Below are positions 1-9,756 of a stretch of DNA of 34,019 bases, one piece after another. Origin of the DNA: Bacteroidota bacterium (GTDB lineage: Bacteria; Bacteroidota; Bacteroidia; Palsa-948); contig JAHEYJ010000019.1 in NCBI GenBank assembly GCA_023251675.1, positions 1-34,019 of the forward strand. The letters are read 5' to 3'. The notes under the pieces were generated by a model. That model ran no database searches. It saw nothing but the letters and a program-made list of their open reading frames with translations, and was not told where the DNA came from. Both the position numbers and the translations under genes were made by a program. Within the stretch, counting starts at the first letter, position 1. Each line of letters begins with the position of its first letter.

Positions 1-2
1 AC

Positions 3-104
3 TATAGACCTCATCAATCACTTAATGGACAAACACCAATAGAATACAAAAAACAAAATCAATTAAAAATCAATCAAATCACTAACTTTGAATTGGCACT
101 ATAA
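3..104 (+). CDS. Transposase, C-terminal end (partial, runs off left edge)
   Basis: The reading frame is open from the window edge to a TAA at 102-104 and gives 33 residues beginning YRPHQSLNGQTPIEYKK. The RPHQSLNGxTPxE pattern is the usual C-terminal end of the rve integrase core in IS3-family (orfB/IS150-like) transposases, which perform cut-and-paste or copy-out transposition of insertion sequences. Only the tail is present, so catalytic residues cannot be checked. The frame ends 14 bp before an attC-like half site whose partner arm is missing, so the insertion sequence probably landed inside that site. It is on the plus strand, opposite to all cassette genes. Confidence 0.7.
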   Translation, partial: YRPHQSLNGQTPIEYKKQNQLKINQITNFELAL

Positions 105-117
105 AAAGGGATGCTTA

Positions 118-147
118 CCGCGGCAATAGCGCAAAATTGCTGTTAAC
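118..147 (-). repeat. attC-like site A, right half only
   Basis: This is the same right arm as in sites B and C: GCAATAGCGCAAAATTGCTG followed by GTTAAC at 142-147. The matching left arm (GYTAACG..TGCAA) is not found upstream; the end of a transposase lies there instead. It would be the recombination site of the cassette carrying the coiled-coil gene at 289-792, interrupted by an insertion sequence. Confidence 0.6.
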
Positions 148-187
148 TGCAGGCGGATTTATTTTCTGTTGTCTGTCCAAAGAGTTG

Positions 188-260
188 TCTGCCGATGATT
201 AAGCACAAATGTCCGAAGAGTTTTTGTCTGTCTGCAACACGCGCGTTACTGTCTGCTGGC
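188..260 (-). repeat. Cassette 3'-tail module, copy 1
   Basis: A block between the stop of the coiled-coil gene and half site A matches a block at 3309-3405 between the stop of the RelA/SpoT gene and site C. Shared words in the same order are GTCTGCCG, AAGCACAAA, TGTCCG, TTGTCTGTCTGCAACACG and CGTTACTGTCTGCTGGCA. The two copies differ mainly by a short length change in the middle. The module therefore belongs to the cassette end rather than to either gene. Its role is unknown; a 3'-UTR, an extension of the recombination site or a decayed element are all possible. Confidence 0.6.
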
Positions 261-288
261 ACAAAGATTGAAAAATAGTTGGTTTATC

Positions 289-792
289 TTATCTTCTTTT
301 TCTCACCGTCATCAGCAGAGAAATCTGTCCTCTGAGATTTAGGTTGTCTTTATTTAGCTTTGCTATTTCATTGCACTTATTTTGTATGTCCTTGTTTAAA
401 TCTGTTATTTTTTTATTGGCTTCGGAAATGGTTTCCTGAATTTTTAGAATATGTTCTTTCTGGTGTTGAGTCTTAACTTCCAGTTCGTGCTTTGTATTTC
501 TTGCAAGGTTTTCCAATGAAGCAATAATGCTGTCTTTAGAGGTAATAAGTTCATTCAGTTGTTTGATTTGTTTTTCCTGCTCGGTGGTTATTTCTTCCAA
601 GTGATCTATTTGCTTTGAAGTGCTGTAATCATTGGTTTCAACAAATTTTATTTTAACTTTCAGGTAGGGTTTATTGTCAATATAAATTACCTCGTTTTCT
701 TCAAGGTCTTTAATAAATTTTTCCTGCAATGGTGATTCAGGCAGATTATCTTTTTTGAATTTTATTTTTTTAATAAACTCTTTGAACTTCAT
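289..792 (-). CDS. Hypothetical coiled-coil protein (cassette 4)
   Basis: A 167-residue protein starting at ATG (790-792). Residues 1-20 are rich in Lys and Phe and residues 35-55 look like a small beta-rich segment. From about residue 60 to 155 there is a nearly continuous heptad pattern rich in Glu, Lys, Gln and Leu, which predicts a long coiled coil. It ends in a basic VRKRR tail. There is no signal peptide or membrane segment. I do not recognise the family. It is the only gene between attC-like site B and half site A, on the same strand as the other cassette genes. Its 5' leader is about 170 bp, long for a cassette gene. Confidence 0.7.
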   Translation of the reverse strand: MKFKEFIKKIKFKKDNLPESPLQEKFIKDLEENEVIYIDNKPYLKVKIKFVETNDYSTSKQIDHLEEITTEQEKQIKQLNELITSKDSIIASLENLARNTKHELEVKTQHQKEHILKIQETISEANKKITDLNKDIQNKCNEIAKLNKDNLNLRGQISLLMTVRKRR

Positions 793-963
793 GATGAAAA
801 CAAATTGTGCAGGATTTGTCTGCTGTCAGTGAAATGCGAAACTGTCCTACGAAGGTGCGAAATTATAGCATGTATTTGTCCTTTATTTTTCTGTCCGATT
901 ACGAGATTGTCTACCGAAAAATTGTCTTGTTGCTGTCGGGCTGTTTGGTTTTTGCCGCTTGCA

Positions 964-1095
964 GTTAACGTTTTGCAAATTGGCGATGTTGCCGATTTAC
1001 GGAGCGAAAAATTGTCTACCGAAACCGAAACAAAGATATGAAAACGGTGTTCAATGCAAGTACGTAAGCGGCAATAGCGCCAAATTGCTGTTAGC
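964..1095 (-). repeat. attC-like recombination site B (132 bp)
   Basis: The left arm starts GTTAACGTTTTGCAAATTGG (964-983) and the right arm ends GCGCCAAATTGCTGTTAGC at 1095. The right arm read in reverse (GCTAACAGCAATTTGGCGCT) pairs with the left over about 30 bp, except that the left arm has four or so extra bases after AAC. This asymmetric imperfect inverted repeat with AAC/GTT ends is the layout of integron attC sites. The centre holds TATCTTTG on the minus strand (1031-1038), a match to the Bacteroidetes -7 element, with CTTG 18 nt upstream (1057-1060). The site starts 8 bp after the stop codon of the 1103-1930 gene. Confidence 0.72.
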
Positions 1096-1102
1096 GGCTG
1101 CC

Positions 1103-1930
1103 TTACTTTGTTTCCTGTTCATCATTTTTTCTCCTCAAAAGTTGTCGCACAAAATTTAAAGAAAACTCTGCTTGCTGTCTTGTGTGTTGTGCGTCTGAAT
1201 GAGCAGCTGCATTTCTCATGCCTTTAAGATCATTGATTGCAGACAAGTCATCTTGGTTGATGATTTTTTCTTTTAATGCAATTTGAATGATGTCATTTAT
1301 TTTGTGTCTGGGAACACGAACATCCTTTGCGGTTATTTTTTTATATAAATGGGTTTCTAATACTTTGAATGTTTCTAAAACAGAATGGGAATAATAGCCG
1401 TCTGCAAAAAGTTTGGTAGCATTGTCAAGTTCTTTGATTTCTTGTTCTTCAATTTCTTCTTGTGCTTTCTTCTTCCTTTCTCTAAGGAGTCTGCTTGATG
1501 TCAGTATGGATGATATTATAGCAAGAATAACTGAAATGGCACCTACCACTTTATTGACAATCTCTAAAGTATTTTCGATTTCTTTATGATTTTTTGCTAC
1601 TGCTACATATGCTTTAAAGATTAAAATGTTTGTAACAACGAGAAGTGGAGTAATAAGAATAAAAACAAAAAGGAAGTAAGCAAAATTAAGCGTATAGTTA
1701 AATAATTTCCATTTCCCAAATTTTGTATCTCGCGCAAAATTTTCTGTCACGTAAAAGTACATGCAAATAGAAAGTCCATAAACAACCCAAAGGAAATAGT
1801 CAGCTAATGTTATAGATGTATACCCTAACTCCAATGTGACTTTTGACAATTCATCCTTAAAAGCACTTAATGAAATGATTAATGTTGCAAATCCTAAAAT
1901 CACTTCGAATTTATTTTTGATTTTATCCAT
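1103..1930 (-). CDS. Membrane-anchored HEPN-like protein (cassette 3)
   Basis: A 275-residue protein; I use the ATG at 1928-1930 rather than the TTG just before it. Four likely membrane segments lie at about residues 8-23, 41-62, 82-105 and 124-144, followed by a charged helix (145-170) and a soluble helical domain. The domain contains KGMRNAAAHS, that is R239-x4-H244, the Rx4-6H signature of HEPN domains, which are often RNases in toxin-antitoxin and defence systems. The stretch LFADGYYSHSVLETFKVLE before it also fits HEPN/DUF4145-like helices. The RNase role is inferred from one motif. The stop codon touches attC-like site B, as expected for a cassette gene, and the 176-aa gene lies 47 bp upstream. 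Confidence 0.75.
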   Translation of the reverse strand: MDKIKNKFEVILGFATLIISLSAFKDELSKVTLELGYTSITLADYFLWVVYGLSICMYFYVTENFARDTKFGKWKLFNYTLNFAYFLFVFILITPLLVVTNILIFKAYVAVAKNHKEIENTLEIVNKVVGAISVILAIISSILTSSRLLRERKKKAQEEIEEQEIKELDNATKLFADGYYSHSVLETFKVLETHLYKKITAKDVRVPRHKINDIIQIALKEKIINQDDLSAINDLKGMRNAAAHSDAQHTRQQAEFSLNFVRQLLRRKNDEQETK

Positions 1931-1977
1931 CAATGTTTATATATGGGTTGTTTTAAGTTTGTTGTTCATGCGATGTG

Positions 1978-2508
1978 TTATCGGCTTCCTTTTTTATCTT
2001 TAATTAGTGTCAATAGTCGAACAATATTTCCATCTGCTAAGTCCGTCAGTCCTAAATTGTAAACCGAATTTATTTTGTTCAATGTTTCGCTGTCGTCTTT
2101 GCCAAAACTTCCTAAATCGCTGTCGTCTGAAATAAAACATTCGTAGTAATTGAGGTTTAAAATTTTCTCAAAGAAGTCAACTGCGATGTCTTCTAATTTG
2201 TCAGCCCGTGAGGTGTCTGCGAATTGTAAGGGAGTTGCCGTCCCAGGTCGTGGAGGATTGTTCAGCTGTCTGTAACTGTCAAAATTATTTTTTAGCATTT
2301 GATATGCCTCTTCTTTTGTGTCGCCAAGTCCAGTCATTGTCCACCAATTGATAATTTGAACAACCCAAGGTTTAAGTTCACCAACATTATATTGCCCCGG
2401 AGTGCCTGTCTGTTTCTTGAAACGCAAAGGATAGTCGTCCAAATCCCAAGTTGTCTTGGTGTATGAAAGCAATTCTTTCCAAGTCGCTTTGATATTGTCT
2501 GTCACCAT
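1978..2508 (-). CDS. Hypothetical protein, 176 aa (cassette 3)
   Basis: The start is ATG at 2506-2508, only about 23 bp inside the cassette boundary at 2532, a spacing typical of cassette genes. The protein is soluble and acidic at the C-terminus, with no signal peptide. Residues 44-80 (ending TGLGDTKEEAYQMLKNNFDS) resemble the HicB-type antitoxin pattern of a glycine turn followed by a DTKEEA helix, and PRPGT follows. This is only a weak resemblance, and no HicA-like partner is present. It is co-oriented with the HEPN-like membrane protein, 47 bp upstream of it, so the two may form a pair in which this protein controls the other. The function is unknown. Confidence 0.7.
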   Translation of the reverse strand: MVTDNIKATWKELLSYTKTTWDLDDYPLRFKKQTGTPGQYNVGELKPWVVQIINWWTMTGLGDTKEEAYQMLKNNFDSYRQLNNPPRPGTATPLQFADTSRADKLEDIAVDFFEKILNLNYYECFISDDSDLGSFGKDDSETLNKINSVYNLGLTDLADGNIVRLLTLIKDKKGSR

Positions 2509-2531
2509 TATAATTTGTCTGCAAGGTTGCC

Positions 2532-2661
2532 GCTAACGTTTTGCAAGCAGCCCACGTGCCGGAGTAAGAACATGTCCACTGCTTTACAATAATCAAAGAT
2601 AATTAAAAACGGGAATTATTTTTTCACTAAAAAGCCGGGATGGGGGCTGATTGCTGTTAGC
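2532..2661 (-). repeat. attC-like recombination site E (130 bp)
   Basis: The left arm begins GCTAACGTTTTGCAAGCAGC at 2532; the right arm ends GGGGGCTGATTGCTGTTAGC at 2661. The arms pair (GCTAAC..GCAA..CAGCCC..CCGG) although the inner sequence (GCAGCCC) differs from sites B and C (AATTTGCG). Such covariation keeps structure rather than sequence and is characteristic of attC sites. The minus strand carries TATCTTTG at 2594-2601 in the centre. It separates cassette 3 from cassette 2. Confidence 0.72.
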
Positions 2662-2888
2662 AAATGCTGCGGATTTCTGTATTTATTATTATTTCGTCCG
2701 GTGCACAGACGGATTTGTCTACCCGCTGCAAACATAGAAGTCTACTGCTGTCCAGGCAGAACTATTGCGTTCTACGCTTTTAAGCTGTGATCTGGCACGC
2801 GAAGACCTATAAAAGTTTTGCAACTGTCGGTATAATCGGAAGACGTGCGGCGCTAACGAAGTAAAAGAGCAACACGAAGGGCAAATTG

Positions 2889-2936
2889 GTACCGCAAACC
2901 ATAAAAACTATCTACCTTGAAAATAGTTTGCGGTAC
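2889..2936. repeat. Hairpin in gene-less cassette
   Basis: GTACCGCAAAC (2889-2899) is the exact reverse complement of GTTTGCGGTAC (2926-2936), with a 26-nt loop. An alternative inner pairing AACTAT/ATAGTT overlaps the stem. No T-run follows on either strand, so it does not look like an intrinsic terminator. Confidence 0.6.
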
Positions 2937-2977
2937 GGATTTGACCTGAGAAGAGAAGCATTAAAGAATTGTTATTC

Positions 2978-3034
2978 CGGTTTGCGTTTTAGCGCGCGCA
3001 GGGACGAGCACGGTAAAATGCAAATCCGGCACGT
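2978..3034. repeat. GC-rich module shared with 5882-5966, copy 1
   Basis: It shares GGTTTGC, GCGCGCAGGG, ACGAGCACGG and ATGCAAA..CCG in order with the leader region next to the recombinase gene. The other copy has about 30 extra bases after GCGCGCAGGG. Confidence 0.45.
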
Positions 3035-3149
3035 GATGTGTATTTGTCGTTCTTCATTTAGTCAACCTGTCTGGCAAAAAAAGAAATGGCGATCTGGCAA
3101 TAGAGGCGGAGAGTTTGCAACGGTCTGTCTTTCGGCTGCTGCAGTTTTT

Positions 3150-3279
3150 GCTAACGCCTCGCAAATTTGCGATGTGCGGGATTTTGAAATACAAAATTGT
3201 CTGCCATTACAAACATAAACCGAAGATACAATTTTTCAAACTTAAACGTCTGCCCGCATAGCGCAAAATTGCTGTTAAC
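3150..3279 (-). repeat. attC-like recombination site C (130 bp)
   Basis: The left arm starts GCTAACGCCTCGCAAATTTG (3150-3169); the right arm ends GCGCAAAATTGCTGTTAAC at 3279. The reversed right arm (GTTAACAGCAATTTTGCGCT) pairs with the left through GCGGG/CCCGC, again with about four extra bases after AAC on the left only. The centre resembles that of site B (ATTGTCTRCC then AAACCGAA then AGATA) and contains a full promoter match on the minus strand. It is the downstream site of cassette 1. Confidence 0.75.
3210..3240 (-). promoter_or_regulatory. Bacteroidetes-type promoter inside attC-like site C
   Basis: On the minus strand TTTG (3237-3240) is followed after exactly 19 nt by TATGTTTG (3210-3217). 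This is a full match to the Bacteroidetes primary-sigma consensus. It would transcribe into cassette 2 and the cassettes beyond. Activity is inferred. Confidence 0.5.
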
Positions 3280-3308
3280 CACATGGGCGCACCCCCTGCT
3301 GTCGTCTG

Positions 3309-3405
3309 CGTTGTGTCTGCCGGGAACGAAGCACAAAGCTGTCCGGTGAGGTTTTTTCTCTTTTTGTATTTGTCTGTCTGCAACACGTGCGTTACTGTCT
3401 GCTGG
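3309..3405 (-). repeat. Cassette 3'-tail module, copy 2
   Basis: This is the second copy of the block at 188-260 (shared words GTCTGCCG, GAAGCACAAA, TGTCCG, TTGTCTGTCTGCAACACG, CGTTACTGTCTGCTGGCA). It lies between the stop of the RelA/SpoT-type gene (3473) and site C, in the same relative position as copy 1. With the two copies behind unrelated genes, this points to a modular cassette tail. Confidence 0.6.
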
Positions 3406-3472
3406 CAGAGGGATAATGAAATGGCAATATGGCTTGGTAGAAGTGCGTGTAAATTTAAAGAATGAAAAATAA

Positions 3473-4159
3473 TTAGTTCCCCCTTTTTTTATGCTCTTGA
3501 TGACTCGCAAAAATGGAATCAGCTAACCTTGTGCCTGCATTCACTAATTTTGCTAATACTTTTATTTGTTCCTTGCAAGCTATACTATCCGTTTTATGAG
3601 GATAGTTAATTGCATGATCGATTTCACCCCAAACCTCTTCAAATAATGTTCTTACTTGAATTTCGCAAGTCACAAAACTTTCTGGATTGGGTTTTATAAC
3701 ATAATGAATGCTTGTATAATTTGAATCCTTCGTATGAACTTCTATATCTAAATCTCTATAAACCGTTTCCTTTTCTTTATCCCATATATAAGCCTTAGGT
3801 TTTTCGAATAGCGCCCACTCATGATATTTATTTACATTACTCATTATTTCATTATGAATTTTAGGAAATTGATCAAGGTGCAGATGAAGAACTCTAACTC
3901 CAGCAAAATCGGTTATTTCCGTAAATAAATTTTCAGTAGTTACCTCTATCCCATCGTTCCATCTTCTATTTAATTTGTCTTCTAAATGTTTTTTGTCCTT
4001 AACTCTTGATTTGAGAGAATGCAAGATAGGTAGTGGAGTTAAATTGAGTGCATTATTTTCTTGAAAGAAAATTTTTACCTGTTCTGAAAACATTGTAAAT
4101 CTTTCTTCTTCTTTTTCAAAAAGCTGAAGGCAGTTTGCAATATGTTCTTCTCTGGTCAT
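3473..4159 (-). CDS. RelA/SpoT-domain nucleotide (pp)pGpp synthetase-like protein (cassette 1)
   Basis: A 228-residue protein from the ATG at 4157-4159 (a TTG lies just before it). It carries the synthetase fold of the RelA/SpoT family, which moves pyrophosphate from ATP to a nucleotide or, in some toxins, to tRNA. Visible motifs: SRVKDKKHLEDKLNRR (substrate-binding basic helix), ITDFAGVRV with the metal-binding Asp, YTSIHYVI in the G-loop region, and CEIQVRTLFEEVWGEIDHA with the catalytic Glu of EIQVRT. There is no HD hydrolase, TGS or ACT domain, so it is a small synthetase or toxSAS-like enzyme. It is the third gene of a co-oriented trio, 58 bp after the ParA-like gene, and is followed by a conserved tail and site C. 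A defence or toxin role is inferred from context. Confidence 0.85.
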   Translation of the reverse strand: MTREEHIANCLQLFEKEEERFTMFSEQVKIFFQENNALNLTPLPILHSLKSRVKDKKHLEDKLNRRWNDGIEVTTENLFTEITDFAGVRVLHLHLDQFPKIHNEIMSNVNKYHEWALFEKPKAYIWDKEKETVYRDLDIEVHTKDSNYTSIHYVIKPNPESFVTCEIQVRTLFEEVWGEIDHAINYPHKTDSIACKEQIKVLAKLVNAGTRLADSIFASHQEHKKRGN

Positions 4160-4217
4160 CAATATTCAATCACATAAATTATTGAAAATAATAGATAGAA
4201 GTTATCTTCTTATTGGT

Positions 4218-5228
4218 TTAGGATTCCTTCTTTGTTAGTGCGATAATGTTGTTTGCAATAGAGATAAAATCTCCTTTTGCTTCTTCTTTTTGATAAGCTT
4301 GTCCTCCATCAACATTGAAGAAAGCTTTCCCCTGTTTTTGAGCTAATAAGGCAAGAGTGCTGAAATCTTTAACTTGTCCTAATTTATTTTGACTCATTGT
4401 TCCTTTTGCTAAATCACTATCAATCTTGCGAAGTACCGTGACTATTTCACTATGAATATTTTTTTCTAGTGTAGCGGCAAAAGAAGAAAACTCAGAAGCT
4501 ATAGCACCTCCGTACATTCTAAATCTTTGCAGAATGTAACCGAGAAATTTTGGACTACCAGGTAATAATGATGTTCCATCTGGTGCAAGTGCAGAAATTA
4601 CCCGCCAGTCACGAATCCATGAATGTATGGTATGACCTAGAGTTTTTAATGCACGAACAGAAAAAAGGTCACAGGCAGCCGGAACAATAAAATAATCACA
4701 GTCTAAAAGTATAATTCTATTTAATGGGCCTATATTGGGTCCTATGTCGTAGAAAACAAAATCAATATTCTCTTTTTGTGCAATGTTGTTTGCTATTTCA
4801 CTTATCGCATATGCTCCTTTAAATCCATGAATTTTTCTTTGGAAGCACTCAATCCAAACTTGACTTAAATCTTCTTCGAATGTAGATAAGCGAATATCTC
4901 CCGGTAACAGAAACACGCCTTCTATGCTACTTTCATTTGCCTTAATGTTTTTTATTTCTCCGGTACCTTCACTAAATGGCTTTAGTGCTGACCAGATCGT
5001 CTGTCCATTTTCGGAGTCAGATTTATCGAGCCAATCATCTACAACATCAGCTGCAACAAGATATGAAGTTAAATTGCATTGTGGATCAGCATCTACGAGT
5101 AATACTTTTTTTCCTAATGAAGCAAGTGCTGCAGCTACATTAATCATTAAGGTGGTTTTGCCAACCCCACCTTTATGGTTATATAGAGTCAGTCTAACTG
5201 CTGGGTGGCGCTTAGATAATTTTGGCAC
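4218..5228 (-). CDS. ParA/Soj-family ATPase (cassette 1)
   Basis: A 336-residue protein with a GTG start (5226-5228). A deviant Walker A motif with signature lysine is seen as HKGGVGKTT (K19, K24), Walker A' as VDADPQCN (D46, D48), and Walker B as FVFYDIGP (D161). These mark the MinD/ParA group of ATP-switch dimers. ParA proteins normally position DNA or proteins, but there is no ParB gene or parS-like repeat here, and the gene is sandwiched between a small protein (12 bp upstream) and a RelA/SpoT-type synthetase. A plasmid-partition role is therefore unlikely; a regulator or sensor in a three-gene defence or toxin module is more plausible but inferred. The C-terminal 100 residues are helical and not recognised. 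Confidence 0.85.
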   Translation of the reverse strand: MPKLSKRHPAVRLTLYNHKGGVGKTTLMINVAAALASLGKKVLLVDADPQCNLTSYLVAADVVDDWLDKSDSENGQTIWSALKPFSEGTGEIKNIKANESSIEGVFLLPGDIRLSTFEEDLSQVWIECFQRKIHGFKGAYAISEIANNIAQKENIDFVFYDIGPNIGPLNRIILLDCDYFIVPAACDLFSVRALKTLGHTIHSWIRDWRVISALAPDGTSLLPGSPKFLGYILQRFRMYGGAIASEFSSFAATLEKNIHSEIVTVLRKIDSDLAKGTMSQNKLGQVKDFSTLALLAQKQGKAFFNVDGGQAYQKEEAKGDFISIANNIIALTKKES

Positions 5229-5240
5229 GTTTTCAATATT

Positions 5241-5792
5241 TTAGTCATCGTTTTTTGAAGTGGCTTTTTTATTCCGTTTTCTTACGCGCATGTTTTTTAC
5301 TTTTTCTCTAGCGGATTCTCGGTCAGGCAATGCTTGCACAAATACTTCTCCTGCAGCACTTAGCTGGCTAGCACCTTTACTTGCCTGAACAATTAATCCT
5401 GCTCTTGCGGTATTGCTAACTGCAACGGCTGCATTTGAAAATTTTGGTTGCGCAGCTTCTGTATTTAATGTACTTAAGTCAAGTGTTTTAAAAAACTGTA
5501 TTCCCTTGTAATGAGTAATATAGTATGCTAAGCATGCAACACGTTCCACGTCAGTTTTGGGTAATTTTTCTTTTAAAAATTCTTTCGCGGACATATCTCG
5601 ATTTTGCGAGAATGATACTTCGCTGTGGTTACTTGATGTTTCATTAGATTTTGATAATGAAGATTGTGGAGTCCAATCAAGATTAAGAAATGTAATCACA
5701 CTTTGAAGCGTCCTTTTTTTAGCTTCAGCGTCTAGCCCATTAAGAGCATTGACAATCGTGTTGAAAATCTCAAGGTTATTATTTTCTTCCAT
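5241..5792 (-). CDS. Hypothetical protein, first gene of the ParA - RelA/SpoT cassette
   Basis: A 183-residue protein with an ATG at 5790-5792, about 25 bp inside the proposed cassette boundary at 5817. The N-terminal 35 residues form a helical segment; residues 40-65 are a Ser/Asn-rich linker. Residues 68-155 form a compact region with TDVERVACLAYYITHY, then FSNAAVAVSNTARAGLIV, ending in a helix with ALPDRESAREKVKNM. This looks like a winged-helix or other small nucleic-acid-binding fold, but I do not recognise the family firmly. The tail is strongly basic (VRKRNKKATSK). The 12-bp gap to the ParA-like gene suggests co-translation. It may be the DNA- or partner-recognition subunit of the module. 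Confidence 0.75.
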   Translation of the reverse strand: MEENNNLEIFNTIVNALNGLDAEAKKRTLQSVITFLNLDWTPQSSLSKSNETSSNHSEVSFSQNRDMSAKEFLKEKLPKTDVERVACLAYYITHYKGIQFFKTLDLSTLNTEAAQPKFSNAAVAVSNTARAGLIVQASKGASQLSAAGEVFVQALPDRESAREKVKNMRVRKRNKKATSKNDD

Positions 5793-5816
5793 TTTATAAA
5801 AAGATTTATTTGCGAA

Positions 5817-5884
5817 GATAACAATATTAAACTTTGTATATGACTGTGTATTTTTTGGCGCGGTTTTAACATTGGCTGTTGGGT
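5817..5884 (-). repeat. Degenerate attC/attI-like site D (68 bp)
   Basis: On the plus strand GATAACAATATTAAAC (5817-5832) faces TTTTAACATTGGCTGTTGGG ending in GTTGGGT at 5878-5884. The reversed right side (CCCAACAGCCAATGTTAAAA) aligns with the left except for three bases after AAC, the same one-sided length difference as in sites B, C and E. It is half their size and its left end (GATAAC) departs from GYTAAC. It could be the junction between the first cassette and the insertion site, or a decayed attC. Confidence 0.4.
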
Positions 5885-5966
5885 TTGCTCTTTGCCGCGC
5901 GCAGGGGAAAAGCTGTCGGTTTTATTTGAACATTAACGAGCACGGCAATGTGCAAACCGTGCAGAA
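5882..5966. repeat. GC-rich module shared with 2978-3034, copy 2
   Basis: It shares GGTTTGC, GCGCGCAGGG, ACGAGCACGG and ATGTGCAAACCG in order with cassette 2. Within it GCACGG (5940-5945) and CCGTGC (5957-5962) form a perfect 6-bp stem with an 11-nt loop. Confidence 0.45.
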
Positions 5967-6051
5967 GTTCAATAGCGACAAAAAATTGTGCAGGAGCTGT
6001 CTTGTTACCTTTTAAGTATGCGGTGAGTGTATTGTCTGCTGTCGGGTTACT

Positions 6052-6157
6052 GCGTATATGTCTACGGAGCGTGGAGTTGGTCACCTACTTTTTTGTCTCC
6101 TGTTGGAATTATGTCCTATACCTGCGTGCATGTCCACGAAGCGTGAGATTGTCACCT
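6052..6157. repeat. Pair of ~35-bp imperfect direct repeats between recombinase and cassettes
   Basis: The copies at 6052-6086 and 6124-6157 share GCGTryATGTCyACGrAGCG, then TGrG, then GTCACCT, and are 72 bp apart. Direct repeats beside the insertion core are known as accessory integrase-binding sites in integron attI sites. The rest of the 5793-6258 gap holds site D, the GC-rich module and a GTTAAC half site; no credible gene is seen in it. Confidence 0.5.
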
Positions 6158-6210
6158 GTTTGAGCGCAGAAAAGTTCAAATGTCAACCGAAAAGCTGTCC
6201 GAAAAAGATG

Positions 6211-6231
6211 TATTTGCGCCTTGTGGTTAAC
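6211..6231. repeat. Half site resembling an attC right arm, candidate insertion core
   Basis: TGCGCCTTGTGGTTAAC ending at 6231 resembles the right arm of site B (GCGCCAAATTGCTGTTAGC) with a short deletion. No left arm is found within 130 bp. It lies 28 bp past the recombinase stop codon, where an attI-like site would be expected if the recombinase inserts cassettes downstream of its own gene. Confidence 0.35.
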
Positions 6232-6258
6232 TAGTTATAGGCACACCAAAGATACTGA

Positions 6259-7515
6259 TTATCCGTTATTTTCCCCGGACAGGCGCACCTCGGGTAGTTC
6301 TTTTCTGTCAGGTTTTCCAGCGCCTAAAAATAACCCTCTTGTCTCTTCATTTATTGATTGTTCGCTCATATCTGCTGTATTTGCCAATATAACATCCAGC
6401 GGACTTCTTATGCTCGTCAGCTTCTTCTTCGTTACATGCGTGTAGATCATGGTGGTCTCTGGCCTGCTATGGCCAAGTAATTCCTGCACATATCTCAGAT
6501 CAACCCCCTGCTCAAGCATATGCGTGGCATACGAATGTCTCAGTACATGTGGCGTTACCTTTTTGTTGATACCGGCTTTATCGCATGCATTCTTAAGGAT
6601 CTTTCTCACACTCGTTGGCGAATATTTCCCGCCATCCTCCCCGTTAAATAAATAGTCAACGGGCTTGTATCCCTCTGCATACCGCTTCAATATAATAAGG
6701 AACATCTTGGAAAGCCCTACCACCCGGTCCTTGTTTCCCTTTCCTCTCACTACCCGGATCTGCATCCGCTCCACGTCAATATCCGGTATCCGCAAATTCA
6801 AAAGCTCACTGATCCGCAGGCCCGATGAATACAGACAGGCTAGAATGGATTTATGTTTGATGTTCGGCGTGAACTTTAATATACTCATCACTTCCTCCTC
6901 GCTCAGCACTGTAGGCAGCCGGAAACTTCTCCGTGGCCTTTCCAGGTCTTCAATTTTCAACTGGCAATCCGGTACACGTTCATAAAAAAGTTTTAACGCC
7001 GAAACTACCTGCCTCTGGTAACTCACTGAATAATTGTTCTTCAGTATATGCTCGTAGTTGAATCGCTCCACATCGGCAACCGTGATCTCTTCGATCTTTT
7101 TGGGAGAACAGAATCCCAGGAACGATCTCACCATGTCAACATAAATTTCTGCAGTCTGGTCTGAATACCGAATGCCCGTAAGATAATTACCGAACTCTTT
7201 TATCCGCGCTGAAGCTTCGCCTGACAACTTGCTGAAGTTCTTCTGCGCAGCCCGGGTTTTCTGAAGAATGGTTTTCGGAAATAATTCCTGGCGCGCTTTC
7301 AGCTTTGTGATGTCCACCCATGCTTTTTCTTTGAATACAGAAAATAATTTTTGAAGGTTCTCTGCGGTGTTCTCCACATAAAAGCACCGGTTCGTTTGGC
7401 TCCATTTGGCCCCGGATGCTTTGGCGCATTGAATTAATTGATCATCGAAACGGAAATCGATTCGTATGTTCTGCATGCCTCTGTGTCGTAAATGATCGAG
7501 CGAAACCGATTTCAT
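6259..7515 (-). CDS. Tyrosine recombinase/integrase with N-terminal extra domain
   Basis: I choose the ATG at 7513-7515 (MKSVSLDHLR, 418 aa); an in-frame TTG lies 18 bp upstream. Order: a compact N-terminal domain (residues about 10-70, RIDFRFDD..AKWSQTNRCFYVE), a SAM-like core-binding domain (about 100-190), and the catalytic domain (200-375). Catalytic residues are R234 (SSGLR), K259 (GKGNKDR), H323 and R326 (HVLRHSY), H349 (LLGHS) and Y358 (MIYTHV). From memory, the Lys-to-His distance is about 106 residues in IntI1 and 72 in XerD; here it is 64, so the IntI-specific insertion is absent. RSPLD after the tyrosine recalls IntI and other Bacteroidetes recombinases. About 40 low-complexity residues follow. 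The gene reads toward the cassette array on the same strand. Confidence 0.93.
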   Translation of the reverse strand: MKSVSLDHLRHRGMQNIRIDFRFDDQLIQCAKASGAKWSQTNRCFYVENTAENLQKLFSVFKEKAWVDITKLKARQELFPKTILQKTRAAQKNFSKLSGEASARIKEFGNYLTGIRYSDQTAEIYVDMVRSFLGFCSPKKIEEITVADVERFNYEHILKNNYSVSYQRQVVSALKLFYERVPDCQLKIEDLERPRRSFRLPTVLSEEEVMSILKFTPNIKHKSILACLYSSGLRISELLNLRIPDIDVERMQIRVVRGKGNKDRVVGLSKMFLIILKRYAEGYKPVDYLFNGEDGGKYSPTSVRKILKNACDKAGINKKVTPHVLRHSYATHMLEQGVDLRYVQELLGHSRPETTMIYTHVTKKKLTSIRSPLDVILANTADMSEQSINEETRGLFLGAGKPDRKELPEVRLSGENNG

Positions 7516-7558
7516 CCGACAAAAATAATTCAATAATAGCCAGGGAACAAATTATAAA

Positions 7559-7933
7559 TTATAACTTGGTTGGGGTTTGATGGTTGATGATGTACTCCGC
7601 TTCATTCAGCAGCTCAACAATGTTATCGGAAGAAGTCACCAGCTGGTTATACAGATTTTCCGCTTCATCGGCTTTCCCCTTGGATCTTAATTGCTGAATG
7701 GATTTTACAATGTTGTGAAGTTTTTCATGCTCCTCTTCAAAATTCTTCATGCACGTCATCTGGCCGTACTTACTCTTGCCTTCTTCATAATACCATTTTC
7801 CCAGGTCGCAATGTTTGTGGGATACCGCCTGTTCTTCTGAAAGCGTTTCCTTGCCGTCTAAATAATTTCTGATCTTGAACTTCCAGTTCAGGTGCATGAA
7901 ACGTGCGTGTGAGAAATCAACTGTTTGGGTCAT
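7559..7933 (-). CDS. Stand-alone CZB (chemoreceptor zinc-binding) domain protein
   Basis: A 124-residue soluble protein made of one domain. SHARFMHLNWKFKIRNYLDG, SHKHCDLGKWYYEEG and FEEEHEKLHNIV match the CZB pattern, in which one Cys and three His bind a zinc ion. In chemoreceptors and diguanylate cyclases this domain senses zinc or hypochlorous acid through the zinc-bound cysteine. Here no signalling domain is attached, and no chemotaxis gene is nearby. It lies 43 bp upstream of the recombinase start on the same strand, so read-through is possible, but I see no functional link. The domain call is firm; the role in this cell is unknown. Confidence 0.85.
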   Translation of the reverse strand: MTQTVDFSHARFMHLNWKFKIRNYLDGKETLSEEQAVSHKHCDLGKWYYEEGKSKYGQMTCMKNFEEEHEKLHNIVKSIQQLRSKGKADEAENLYNQLVTSSDNIVELLNEAEYIINHQTPTKL

Positions 7934-8006
7934 GCCAGTTTCTCAAAAGATTTTTTTCAATAGCCGAAAATAGAAAACCTTTTTCTTTAATACCATGTGC
8001 TTTATC

Positions 8007-8087
8007 ATGAGAAAACATGATAGAAAAAAGATGGATCAGTCATTCGATGAGCAACTCAACGAAGACCCCGAAAAAAGAAAAAAATAA
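8007..8087 (+). CDS. Possible 26-aa small ORF
   Basis: ATG at 8007 to TAA at 8085-8087 encodes a very charged peptide (starts MRKHDRKKMDQSFDEQLNED). It sits alone between two minus-strand genes and no promoter match was found. It is listed because it is the only frame in the 212-bp gap; it may well be chance. Confidence 0.15.
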   Translation: MRKHDRKKMDQSFDEQLNEDPEKRKK

Positions 8088-8094
8088 AGGTTCG

Positions 8095-8110
8095 AACTTG
8101 CCGGCAAGTT
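8095..8110. repeat. Perfect 16-bp palindrome
   Basis: AACTTGCCGGCAAGTT reads the same on both strands. It lies 36 bp past the stop of the COG2509 gene. On the minus strand a T-rich run follows after CGAACC, so a weak terminator is possible. Confidence 0.35.
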
Positions 8111-8145
8111 ATCCCGGTATATATTCATCTCGTGTTAGGCGTTTA

Positions 8146-9756
8146 TTAAGCTAATATATAGTTACCTGCCGCTTCCGCACACCGCTCTCCGTCCATGGCG
8201 GCGCTTACAATTCCCCCTGCATAGCCGGCCCCTTCAGCGCAGGGAAACAATCCGCTCAGCTCTGTATGCATCAGGGTTGCCGCATCTCTCGGTATTCGCA
8301 CCGGCGAAGAAGTGCGCGATTCGGTTGCCACCAGTACGGCTTCGTTGGTAAAGTATCCTTTCCCGCCATGGCGGGCAGGCATTTTTTTTCCGAAATCTTT
8401 TAAAGCGGACTGAAGTGGAAGGGAGATCTCTTTTGGAAGAACGGAGAAAAGATCGGCAGACACAATGCCGGGAATGTAAGAACAGGAGGGAAGGGAGGAG
8501 GAAATTTTTTTATTTACAAAATCGGCCATGCGCTGGGCCGGCGCTTTCAGGTCTCCTCCTCCGGCAAGAAAAGATTTCTTTTCGATCTCCTGCTGGTAGC
8601 GGAGTGCAGCCAGTTCGCCGTGTTTTGAGAAACGTAAGAAATCGTTCCCGTCCACACTCACAACAACTCCTGAATTGGCGTAAGGATTGTTTCGTTTTGA
8701 GGGTGACCATCCGTTCACCACCAGTTCTCCCGGAGCCGTAGCTGCCGGGGCAATGATCCCGCCCGGGCACATGCAGAAGGAATAAACGCCCCTGTTGTTC
8801 TGCTGGCTCACCAGCGCGTAAGAAGCAGGCGGAAGGAATTCATTCCGGGCAGTTTGATGGTATTGTGCGGCATCAATAATGCTTTGCGGATGTTCTATTC
8901 GTATGCCCAGCGCAAATGATTTCGCTTCTATTTTAAATTTATTCTGATGGAAATATTCAAATATATCGCGGGCTGAATGCCCGGTAGCCAGGATCACTGC
9001 TTTTGTTTTAACAGACGTTTCGGTTCCGTTGGAAAGCGATCTTGTTTTTATTCCTTTGATCTTATTTCCTTCCAGTTCGAACGAAATAAATTTTGTATTG
9101 AAATGAATTTCGCCGCCGCATTCAAGAATGGCGTTGCGCATGTTCTCAATGATGCGCGGCAGTTTGTTGGTTCCGATATGCGGATGGGCATCTACGGCAA
9201 TATCTCCATTCGCTCCGAATTGAATGAAAGTTTCCAGCACCTTTTGAATATTGCCTCGCTTTCCCGACCGCGTATATAGTTTTCCGTCTGAAAAAGTTCC
9301 TGCTCCTCCTTCTCCGAAACAGTAATTGGAATCCGGGTTTACAATGCCCTTCCGGTTGATCTCGGCAATATCCCTTCTCCGGCCTTTTACATTTTTCCCG
9401 CGTTCAATAATAATGGGTTTATATCCGAGTTCGATCAGCCGCAAGGCGGCGAACAGGCCGGCCGGCCCGCACCCGATCACCGCCACGGGTTCTTTTGCAG
9501 AAATATTTTGCAAATGCCTTGGCTCGGTTTCTTTTTTGGGTAATTCTTCATTCACCGCAACAGAAACAAGCAAACGCACTTTCACATCCCGTGAACGCGC
9601 ATCGATCGATCGTTTGTTGATAGAAAATTTGACGGTGTCAGATGATGAAAGCTGTAGTTGCCTTCGAATAATTGCAGATATCCTTTTTTCGCTGGCGGCC
9701 TCTTCGGGCGGCAAAGCGAGCTCAATGGTTTTCAACGGATTAACGATTTTTAACAA
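8146..9756 (-). CDS. FAD-dependent dehydrogenase, COG2509 family
   Basis: A 536-residue flavoprotein. The N-terminal 80 residues are a small alpha/beta domain (KTIELALPPEEAASEKRI). A Rossmann motif GCGPAGLFAALRLIELG follows with E at the end of the second strand (IIIERG) to bind FAD ribose. Then come the family stretches CFGEGGAGTFSDGKLYTR, ILATGHSARDIF and CMCPGG..APAATAPGELVVNG. The family is conserved in bacteria but its substrate is not known to me. The start is a TTG (9754-9756); no ATG is available nearby. A palindromic repeat is read in frame near the C-terminus (MPARHGGKG). It is divergent from the 9844 gene, with about 90 bp between them. Confidence 0.88.
   Translation of the reverse strand: MLKIVNPLKTIELALPPEEAASEKRISAIIRRQLQLSSSDTVKFSINKRSIDARSRDVKVRLLVSVAVNEELPKKETEPRHLQNISAKEPVAVIGCGPAGLFAALRLIELGYKPIIIERGKNVKGRRRDIAEINRKGIVNPDSNYCFGEGGAGTFSDGKLYTRSGKRGNIQKVLETFIQFGANGDIAVDAHPHIGTNKLPRIIENMRNAILECGGEIHFNTKFISFELEGNKIKGIKTRSLSNGTETSVKTKAVILATGHSARDIFEYFHQNKFKIEAKSFALGIRIEHPQSIIDAAQYHQTARNEFLPPASYALVSQQNNRGVYSFCMCPGGIIAPAATAPGELVVNGWSPSKRNNPYANSGVVVSVDGNDFLRFSKHGELAALRYQQEIEKKSFLAGGGDLKAPAQRMADFVNKKISSSLPSCSYIPGIVSADLFSVLPKEISLPLQSALKDFGKKMPARHGGKGYFTNEAVLVATESRTSSPVRIPRDAATLMHTELSGLFPCAEGAGYAGGIVSAAMDGERCAEAAGNYILA
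8362..8375. repeat. In-frame palindromic repeat in the COG2509 gene
   Basis: CCCGCCATGGCGGG is a perfect 14-bp palindrome followed by CAGGC. It encodes PARHGG within MPARHGGKGYF. The same kind of element occurs in two other conserved genes of the window. Confidence 0.55.

Follow-up and report, generated by a model that had tools for sequence, protein, structure and literature searches.

Sedentary chromosomal integrons are arrays of gene cassettes with attC sites beside a tyrosine recombinase. The attC site is an imperfect palindrome lying on the axis of the gene, and its stem is broken by a mismatch-pair-mismatch triple (ATG/TAG in the genus studied here). Integron research is not known to have settled how genes acquire attC and become cassettes. 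Among Bacteroidetes, one complete integron, that of Salinibacter ruber M1, is named in the part of the IntegronFinder 2.0 paper available to us (PMC9024848). Cassettes need not contain a gene: integron cassettes of Vibrio and Treponema that are bounded by attC, geneless and provided with a promoter-like sequence in the gene direction are described in the available part of another report (PMC11014356). Short extragenic repeated palindromes of a different kind, the REP elements, comprise GTAG and CGTC families, and the accessible text reports CGTC-tagged REPs in some Bacteroidetes (PMC3733652).

In this study, we analysed a window of 34,019 nt from a Bacteroidota bacterium, which contains an integron-like cassette array and, within it, a cassette of 488 nt (2662–3149) that lacks a gene. 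The cassette resembles those of Vibrio and Treponema as far as these are described in the source at hand, but it contains two hairpins, A and B, of an apparently phylum-wide boundary type, and its promoter is a candidate only. Boundary hairpins of this type share with attC the palindromic form, the alignment with the gene axis and the mismatch-pair-mismatch break; they differ from attC in having variable stems, in adjoining attC-like sites and, by eye, in carrying no GTTA/TAAC cores. From the REP families, as described in the portion of that report seen, they are set apart by the absence of a conserved stem and by their tie to cassette ends and orientation. We consider the cassette to be, on balance, a gene cassette that was emptied or never filled, with A and B as its diverged boundary hairpins.

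The cassette array and its recombinase

A tyrosine recombinase of the XerA type is encoded on the minus strand at 6259–7533 (251 bits against XerA; cut-off 220). Against TIGR02249 it scores 215.2 bits, under the cut-off of 265 and thus short of the score for an IntI, and no match above that cut-off was obtained in any of seven genomes from the order. Its alignment to IntI4 (2A3V) splits at chain positions 213/244, about 30 residues of IntI4 being without a counterpart; the same split match is given by four relatives (G001:C24, G004:C14, G002:C86 and G002:C350). In its score and its gap the enzyme differs from the recombinases of sedentary chromosomal integrons, and the array, judged by sequence, is integron-like rather than an integron proper as far as the recombinase is concerned. 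Genes of the cassette region include one that matches RelA/SpoT (3473–4162) and one of the ParA type (4218–5228).

Three attC-like sites on the plus strand were compared, all with one common fold layout. Two of them, 2532–2661 (GCTAACG...GTTAGC, cores at 2534 and 2651) and 3150–3279 (GCTAACG...GTTAAC), are separated by the 488 nt of the cassette, and the third, at about 965–1095, lies between neighbouring cassettes. The left site, which would be the 3′ attC of the cassette in the gene direction, is the weaker: its arm complementarity score of 12 is reached by two of 500 shuffles, and the attC finder, the threshold of which is 13, missed the site. The right site scores 14 and the third site 16.5, values reached by 0/500 shuffles in either case, and the finder matched both. 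On cores and fold, the cassette, which reads on the minus strand, is therefore bounded by putative sites of attC type, as an integron gene cassette is. The gene with a stop codon abutting the attC side that such a cassette would have is lacking, since 2662–3149 holds no credible gene. The sole ORF of at least 80 aa overlapping it (2886–3218, plus strand, TTG start) runs antisense to the array and enters the right site, and no Pfam or NCBIfam match to it was found at E 0.1. The original prediction of a 488-nt cassette between two sites, with no plausible protein gene, was thus confirmed, with the qualification that its left site is the weaker one. Plasmid and phage sequence searches with the cassette gave no match.

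Hairpins A and B of the gene-less cassette

Hairpin A (2876–2947, plus strand) contains the predicted perfect hairpin with a 26-nt loop: GTACCGCAAAC at 2889–2899 and GTTTGCGGTAC at 2926–2936 pair at 11/11 positions around a loop at 2900–2925. The arms extend to 25 nt each (2878–2902/2923–2947) at 84% complementarity. No 25-nt arm in the cassette exceeds 21 matches, a value reached by 0/200 dinucleotide shuffles, and the RNA fold has an energy of −28.1 kcal/mol (z −6.2; 0/200 shuffles equal). The genome (3.4 Mb, 250 contigs) was searched for further copies. The whole of A, B and the linker between them recurs on contig C177 (C177:35789–35911, 120 nt, 84% identity), and a third copy of A, with a near-identical loop and a different stem by eye, lies on contig C59 (L007 7897–7968). 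A search of the same genome for the loop of A with three mismatches returned 63 hits against 95 for the backward pattern, which is noise beyond the best copies.

The three copies align without gaps over 72 nt, each with a 26-nt loop and with column k pairing with column 75 − k. Of their cells, 95.2% are paired and 14 of the 21 pairs are altered on both sides (0/500 shuffles), while sliding the partner by one to three columns lowers the pairing to 28–41%. Compensatory changes in the stem, which had been proposed as a check, are thus present, and so is a conserved copy elsewhere, the lack of which had been named as evidence against the prediction. A covariance model of the three copies gave 14 hits in four of the seven genomes of the order, namely the three training copies and 11 new ones; in six of the 14, picked for looking alike and aligned with their flanks, the hairpin is preceded by a shared spacer and attC-like site.

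Strong folding, covariation and a second copy in the same genome would also suit a dedicated non-coding RNA gene, as originally suggested for this cassette. Nearly the same loop and frame, however, occur in the gene-bearing cassette on C59, 21 nt from the stop codon, and we regard an RNA gene as highly improbable. The broader suggestion of an RNA or regulatory unit fares unevenly: a dedicated unit is unsupported because similar hairpins end ordinary gene cassettes and because G·T and A·C pairs are unfavoured on either strand, and a promoter-like sequence, described below, leaves room for a regulatory role.

Hairpin A is followed by a linker of 29 nt (2948–2976), similar in the C177 copy, in which the gene would be expected, and by hairpin B (2977–3029, plus strand). 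The similarity of B to a module at 5882–5957 (plus strand), which had been assigned to the leader of the recombinase, is real (84% between 2979–3003 and 5882–5906; 79% between 3004–3031 and 5936–5963). The assignment is wrong, because the module lies downstream of the stop codon of the recombinase and 94 nt upstream of the cassette gene 5241–5792, of which it is the 5′ hairpin, one with the TCT/TGT loop described below. A further relative of B (L007 7451–7491) is located 111 nt upstream of a gene start. From such positions we infer that A belongs to the 3′ class and B to the 5′ class of boundary hairpins, the tie of B to its type being its similarity to the 5882 module and to C59 only.

The tandem did not arise from one deletion in the window array alone, because the same tandem with a similar linker stands on C177. 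No attC-like sites were detected around A and B there. By eye, an inverted repeat, GGGAGCTA/TAGCTCCC, flanks the C177 tandem (L006 4701–4713 and 5049–5063). Also by eye, the window begins (1–60) with an element end whose sequence reappears, inverted, at the end of the C59 contig (L007 8620–8674), so that these contigs may adjoin each other.

The C177 copy also bears on the word GCTAACG, which was thought to be a relic attC arm. It is present at 2852–2858, but C177 has no such arm. A relic attC is not supported by the finder's call at 2853–2975 either, its score coming from hairpin A between GCTAACG and TGTTA and its arm being missing in C177.

TCT/TGT hairpins and shared end pieces in the phylum

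In this hairpin type the outer stem is separated from the inner stem, which carries the loop, by an internal loop, T·T/C-G/T·T, with TCT facing TGT; the stem sequence varies and its complementarity is kept. Among mismatch-pair-mismatch triples in 13 loci of the genus (352,912 nt, both strands; most picked for model or BLAST hits), TCT/TGT occurs 18 times, six of these being hits of the A model, the attC-type ATG/TAG ten times and every other triple at most four times. For the phylum, hairpins were selected by an exact pattern, GCTCTTTTGC-N12-42-GCAAATGTGC, with a 20-nt core. At least 120 stretches match it in a scan of prokaryote species genomes; among the 80 matches listed, 78 are Bacteroidota by name, and the others are a Firmicutes-named MAG (L100) and a member of the Ignavibacteriales (L084). 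The Bacteroidota include cultivable strains, such as Draconibacterium orientale and a Flavobacterium. In 395 genomes of the phylum the pattern has 28 exact matches in 18 genomes, the present one counted, and the backward pattern has none. Hairpins A and B of the window are without an exact TCT/TGT and absent from the TCT/TGT hits in the genus loci and from those of the looser detector described below, and the C59 copy in the same genome is among them. Window A is tied to the wider type because this copy combines nearly the loop of A with the exact core (21 nt from a stop codon, in a gene-bearing cassette).

We oriented 112 elements with TCT on the left, 84 from the prokaryote-wide exact-core scan and 28 from the scan of 395 genomes. 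Positions 1–6 of the outer stem are paired in 108, 103, 88, 88, 96 and 81 of them, compared with 54, 46, 27, 39, 44 and 43 after shuffling of partners. Complementarity is thus preserved across the type, with which a separate alignment agrees; its 22 rows count six elements twice (once per strand) and include one attC site and one B-type hairpin. The loops differ, reading CATAAAAACTATCTACC... in the genus group and GGTCTGTGCGTTGGC... in the rest of the phylum, so that the type has no common loop. When applied to the 80 listed loci (553,914 nt, E up to 1), the A model gave 24 hits, 23 on 20 distinct hairpins and one elsewhere (L083). Only five of the 23 have the TCT-left orientation, the other 18 being reversed; the model therefore senses stem and size rather than the loop, and its use as proof of common descent with the phylum hairpins was rejected. 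In titles and abstract openings of the open PMC literature we found no description of such Bacteroidota cassettes or hairpins, and the papers listed for sequence strings look unrelated by title.

The position of the hairpins is related to genes. The right-neighbour ORF is on the minus strand for 95 of the 100 elements that have a neighbour (12 of the 112 have none). It lies within 60 nt in 54 cases, 35 of them at 16–22 nt, and an ORF of at least 90 aa runs across 27 of the 112 elements. A looser detector applied to both strands of 1.63 Mb found 151 hairpins (146 distinct, 104 of which belong to the pattern-chosen set) compared with ten in reversed sequence; the recall of the detector is limited. 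By class, 57 are of 3′ type, 46 of 5′ type, seven of both and 41 of neither. Within 600 nt of the 3′-type hairpins an attC-like site is found on the left in 35/64 and on the right in 0/64, and for the 5′ type on the right in 23/46 and on the left in 4/46; reversed controls gave 0/64 and 0/46, with one among the 41 unclassified. In both types, therefore, the attC-like sites sit on the gene-distal side of the hairpin. A Bacteroidota −7 box (TAnnTTTG) stands between the 5′ hairpin and the start codon in 25/42 (reversed 1, antisense 0), and beyond these hairpins, towards attC, in 2/42. Read with the gene, a cassette thus usually runs from attC through the 5′ hairpin, promoter, gene and stop codon to the 3′ hairpin, often 16–22 nt past the stop, and on to the next attC. 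Both hairpins were detected for one gene, only the 3′ hairpin for 43, only the 5′ hairpin for 46 and neither for 356. The notion that every gene carries both was rejected on these counts; with both detected for a single gene, the paired frame is a composite of the two classes that is rarely observed complete.

This regularity bears on whether the cassette received a REP-like or MITE-like palindrome by chance insertion. The palindrome is indeed repeated across many genomes, its C177 copy lies outside a detected array, and for 41 of the 151 hairpins of the looser detector no gene end was assigned. The stems vary while their pairing is kept, however, and the hairpins are tied to gene ends and attC, so that a chance insertion appears very improbable.

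The same regularity lends itself to a reading of the hairpins as insulators at the RNA level, in which the mRNA would be ended or protected by the 3′ hairpin and read-through stopped before the promoter by the 5′ hairpin. The frequent spacing of 16–22 nt past the stop codon suits it, as do the placement of the 5′ hairpin upstream of the promoter box in the 25 of 42 cases above and the constant orientation of hairpin to gene; around the 112 hairpins, all 76 occurrences of the word GCGTTGGC are on one and the same strand. RNA hairpins of this kind fit less well with the sequence itself, in which no T run follows the hairpins by eye. Among 130 mispairs at 1120 stem positions, 20 are G·T and 14 are A·C, together 34 against 43 expected as the share of four of the 12 mispair types, and G·A accounts for 58, largely from related copies, with neither strand favoured. 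Nor does any Rfam family reach its gathering score over the hairpins in 18 loci; Rfam on window 1–9000 gave just two matches, below gathering score and outside the cassette. We judge insulation at the RNA level to be possible but on the unlikely side. That wobble pairs are unenriched on either strand speaks mildly against RNA and would be consistent with selection on DNA. Instead of working as RNA the hairpins may, with less certainty, act as folded DNA beside attC, either helping recombination or marking a boundary when cassettes are assembled.

Several other elements were noted at these loci. Group II intron matches are present at L130 19–136, L094 1797–1872 and L143 1–131; by eye the L130 region is near the right arm of an attC-like site, and some 215 nt separate the L094 match from a hairpin. 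A frame that by eye resembles a shortened tyrosine recombinase (L109 331–999) lies beside a hairpin in a Cytophagaceae MAG, in the same order as in the window.

The hairpins are shared between genes together with their flanks. We defined the 3′ end piece as the hairpin and up to 250 nt on its attC side (n = 63) and compared it with 42 5′ pieces. Among the 63, an identity of 75% or more over 100 nt or more is shown by 157 pairs, and in 153 of these the genes show no protein match (E 1e-3, last 400 aa compared), with four related; one pair reaches 93.7% identity over 316 nt. Among the 42 5′ pieces, 30 pairs show 75% identity or more over 80 nt or more, six with related and 24 with unrelated proteins. 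In 12 pairs hand-picked from the top of the list, mean identity is 0.96 at 25–30 nt and 0.89 at 13–24 nt before the stop codon, 0.72–0.79 in the last 12 nt before it and 0.50–0.65 past it. The shared stretch, as judged by eye, runs out in a word resembling TGCGTTGGC that coincides with the stop codon or lies close to it. The hairpin and its attC-side spacer, which holds short words, thus form with attC standard end pieces joined to unrelated genes. Three plasmid records match one 3′ end piece in part. In the array of the window (1–6258), TGTCTG occurs 19 times on the plus strand and once on the minus strand, and in the remaining 27.8 kb two and three times. A 49-nt direct repeat (90%) at 220–268 and 3366–3414 accompanies two cassette genes on their 3′ side and has no TCT/TGT hairpin.

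A candidate empty frame

Read in the gene direction, 2662–3149 would consist of an attC-like site, the 5′ hairpin B, 29 nt, the 3′ hairpin A and the next attC-like site, that is, of two end pieces, one 5′ and one 3′, that enclose no gene; no ORF here matched a protein family. The 3′ piece would normally join unrelated genes directly past the stop codon and the 5′ piece would stand upstream of a promoter, so that what appears to be missing is the promoter and gene usually found between such hairpins. Because only 29 nt separate the 3′-type A from the 5′-type B, the gene slot appears to be empty. The cassette may once have had a gene, or could receive one. A fusion of two cassettes, as first proposed, agrees with the juxtaposition of a 5′ and a 3′ end piece, but a missing gene fits better. 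When 395 genomes were searched for two hairpins in tandem with the exact pattern, 12 matches in nine genomes were obtained, none of them a clear empty frame by eye. The tandem matches L222–L231 are, again by eye, mostly single hairpins in inverted nesting, with TGT on the left and TCT on the right.

The promoter consensus of Bacteroidota is TTTG-N16-23-TAnnTTTG. A sequence that departs from it by one mismatch, TCTG-N20-TATGTTTG, runs from 2760 to 2729 on the minus strand, the sense strand of the array, and points at the attC-like site and the gene at 1978–2508. The cassette may accordingly have been kept as a promoter for that gene, which has 23 nt from attC to start and no −7 box in 2509–2530. 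A sense −7 box is found within 150 nt on the attC side of 11 of 54 3′ pieces (reversed 1, antisense 1), and gene-less Vibrio cassettes act as promoters according to the available part of the report (PMC11014356). Nevertheless, the mismatch falls in the −33 box, one exact −7 box per 488 nt on two strands is unremarkable, and the hairpins are left unexplained; maintenance for this promoter seems to us unlikely. It is compatible with the cassette being an emptied or never-filled one, as the two readings are not exclusive.

A gene cassette without its gene would show that the frame can exist on its own. More speculatively, Bacteroidota may possess a scarcely noticed integron-like system in which two universal end pieces (5′ and 3′), each a TCT/TGT hairpin with attC, are attached to unrelated units of promoter and gene, the junctions being marked by fixed words, and in which empty frames such as 2662–3149 are intermediates or acceptors when new cassettes form. 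End pieces that are common to unrelated genes across the phylum and have a sharp junction at the stop codon make cassette boundaries mappable, and the boundary hairpins provide a signature for finding Bacteroidota cassettes. If empty frames are indeed intermediates or acceptors, the origin of cassettes would become testable.
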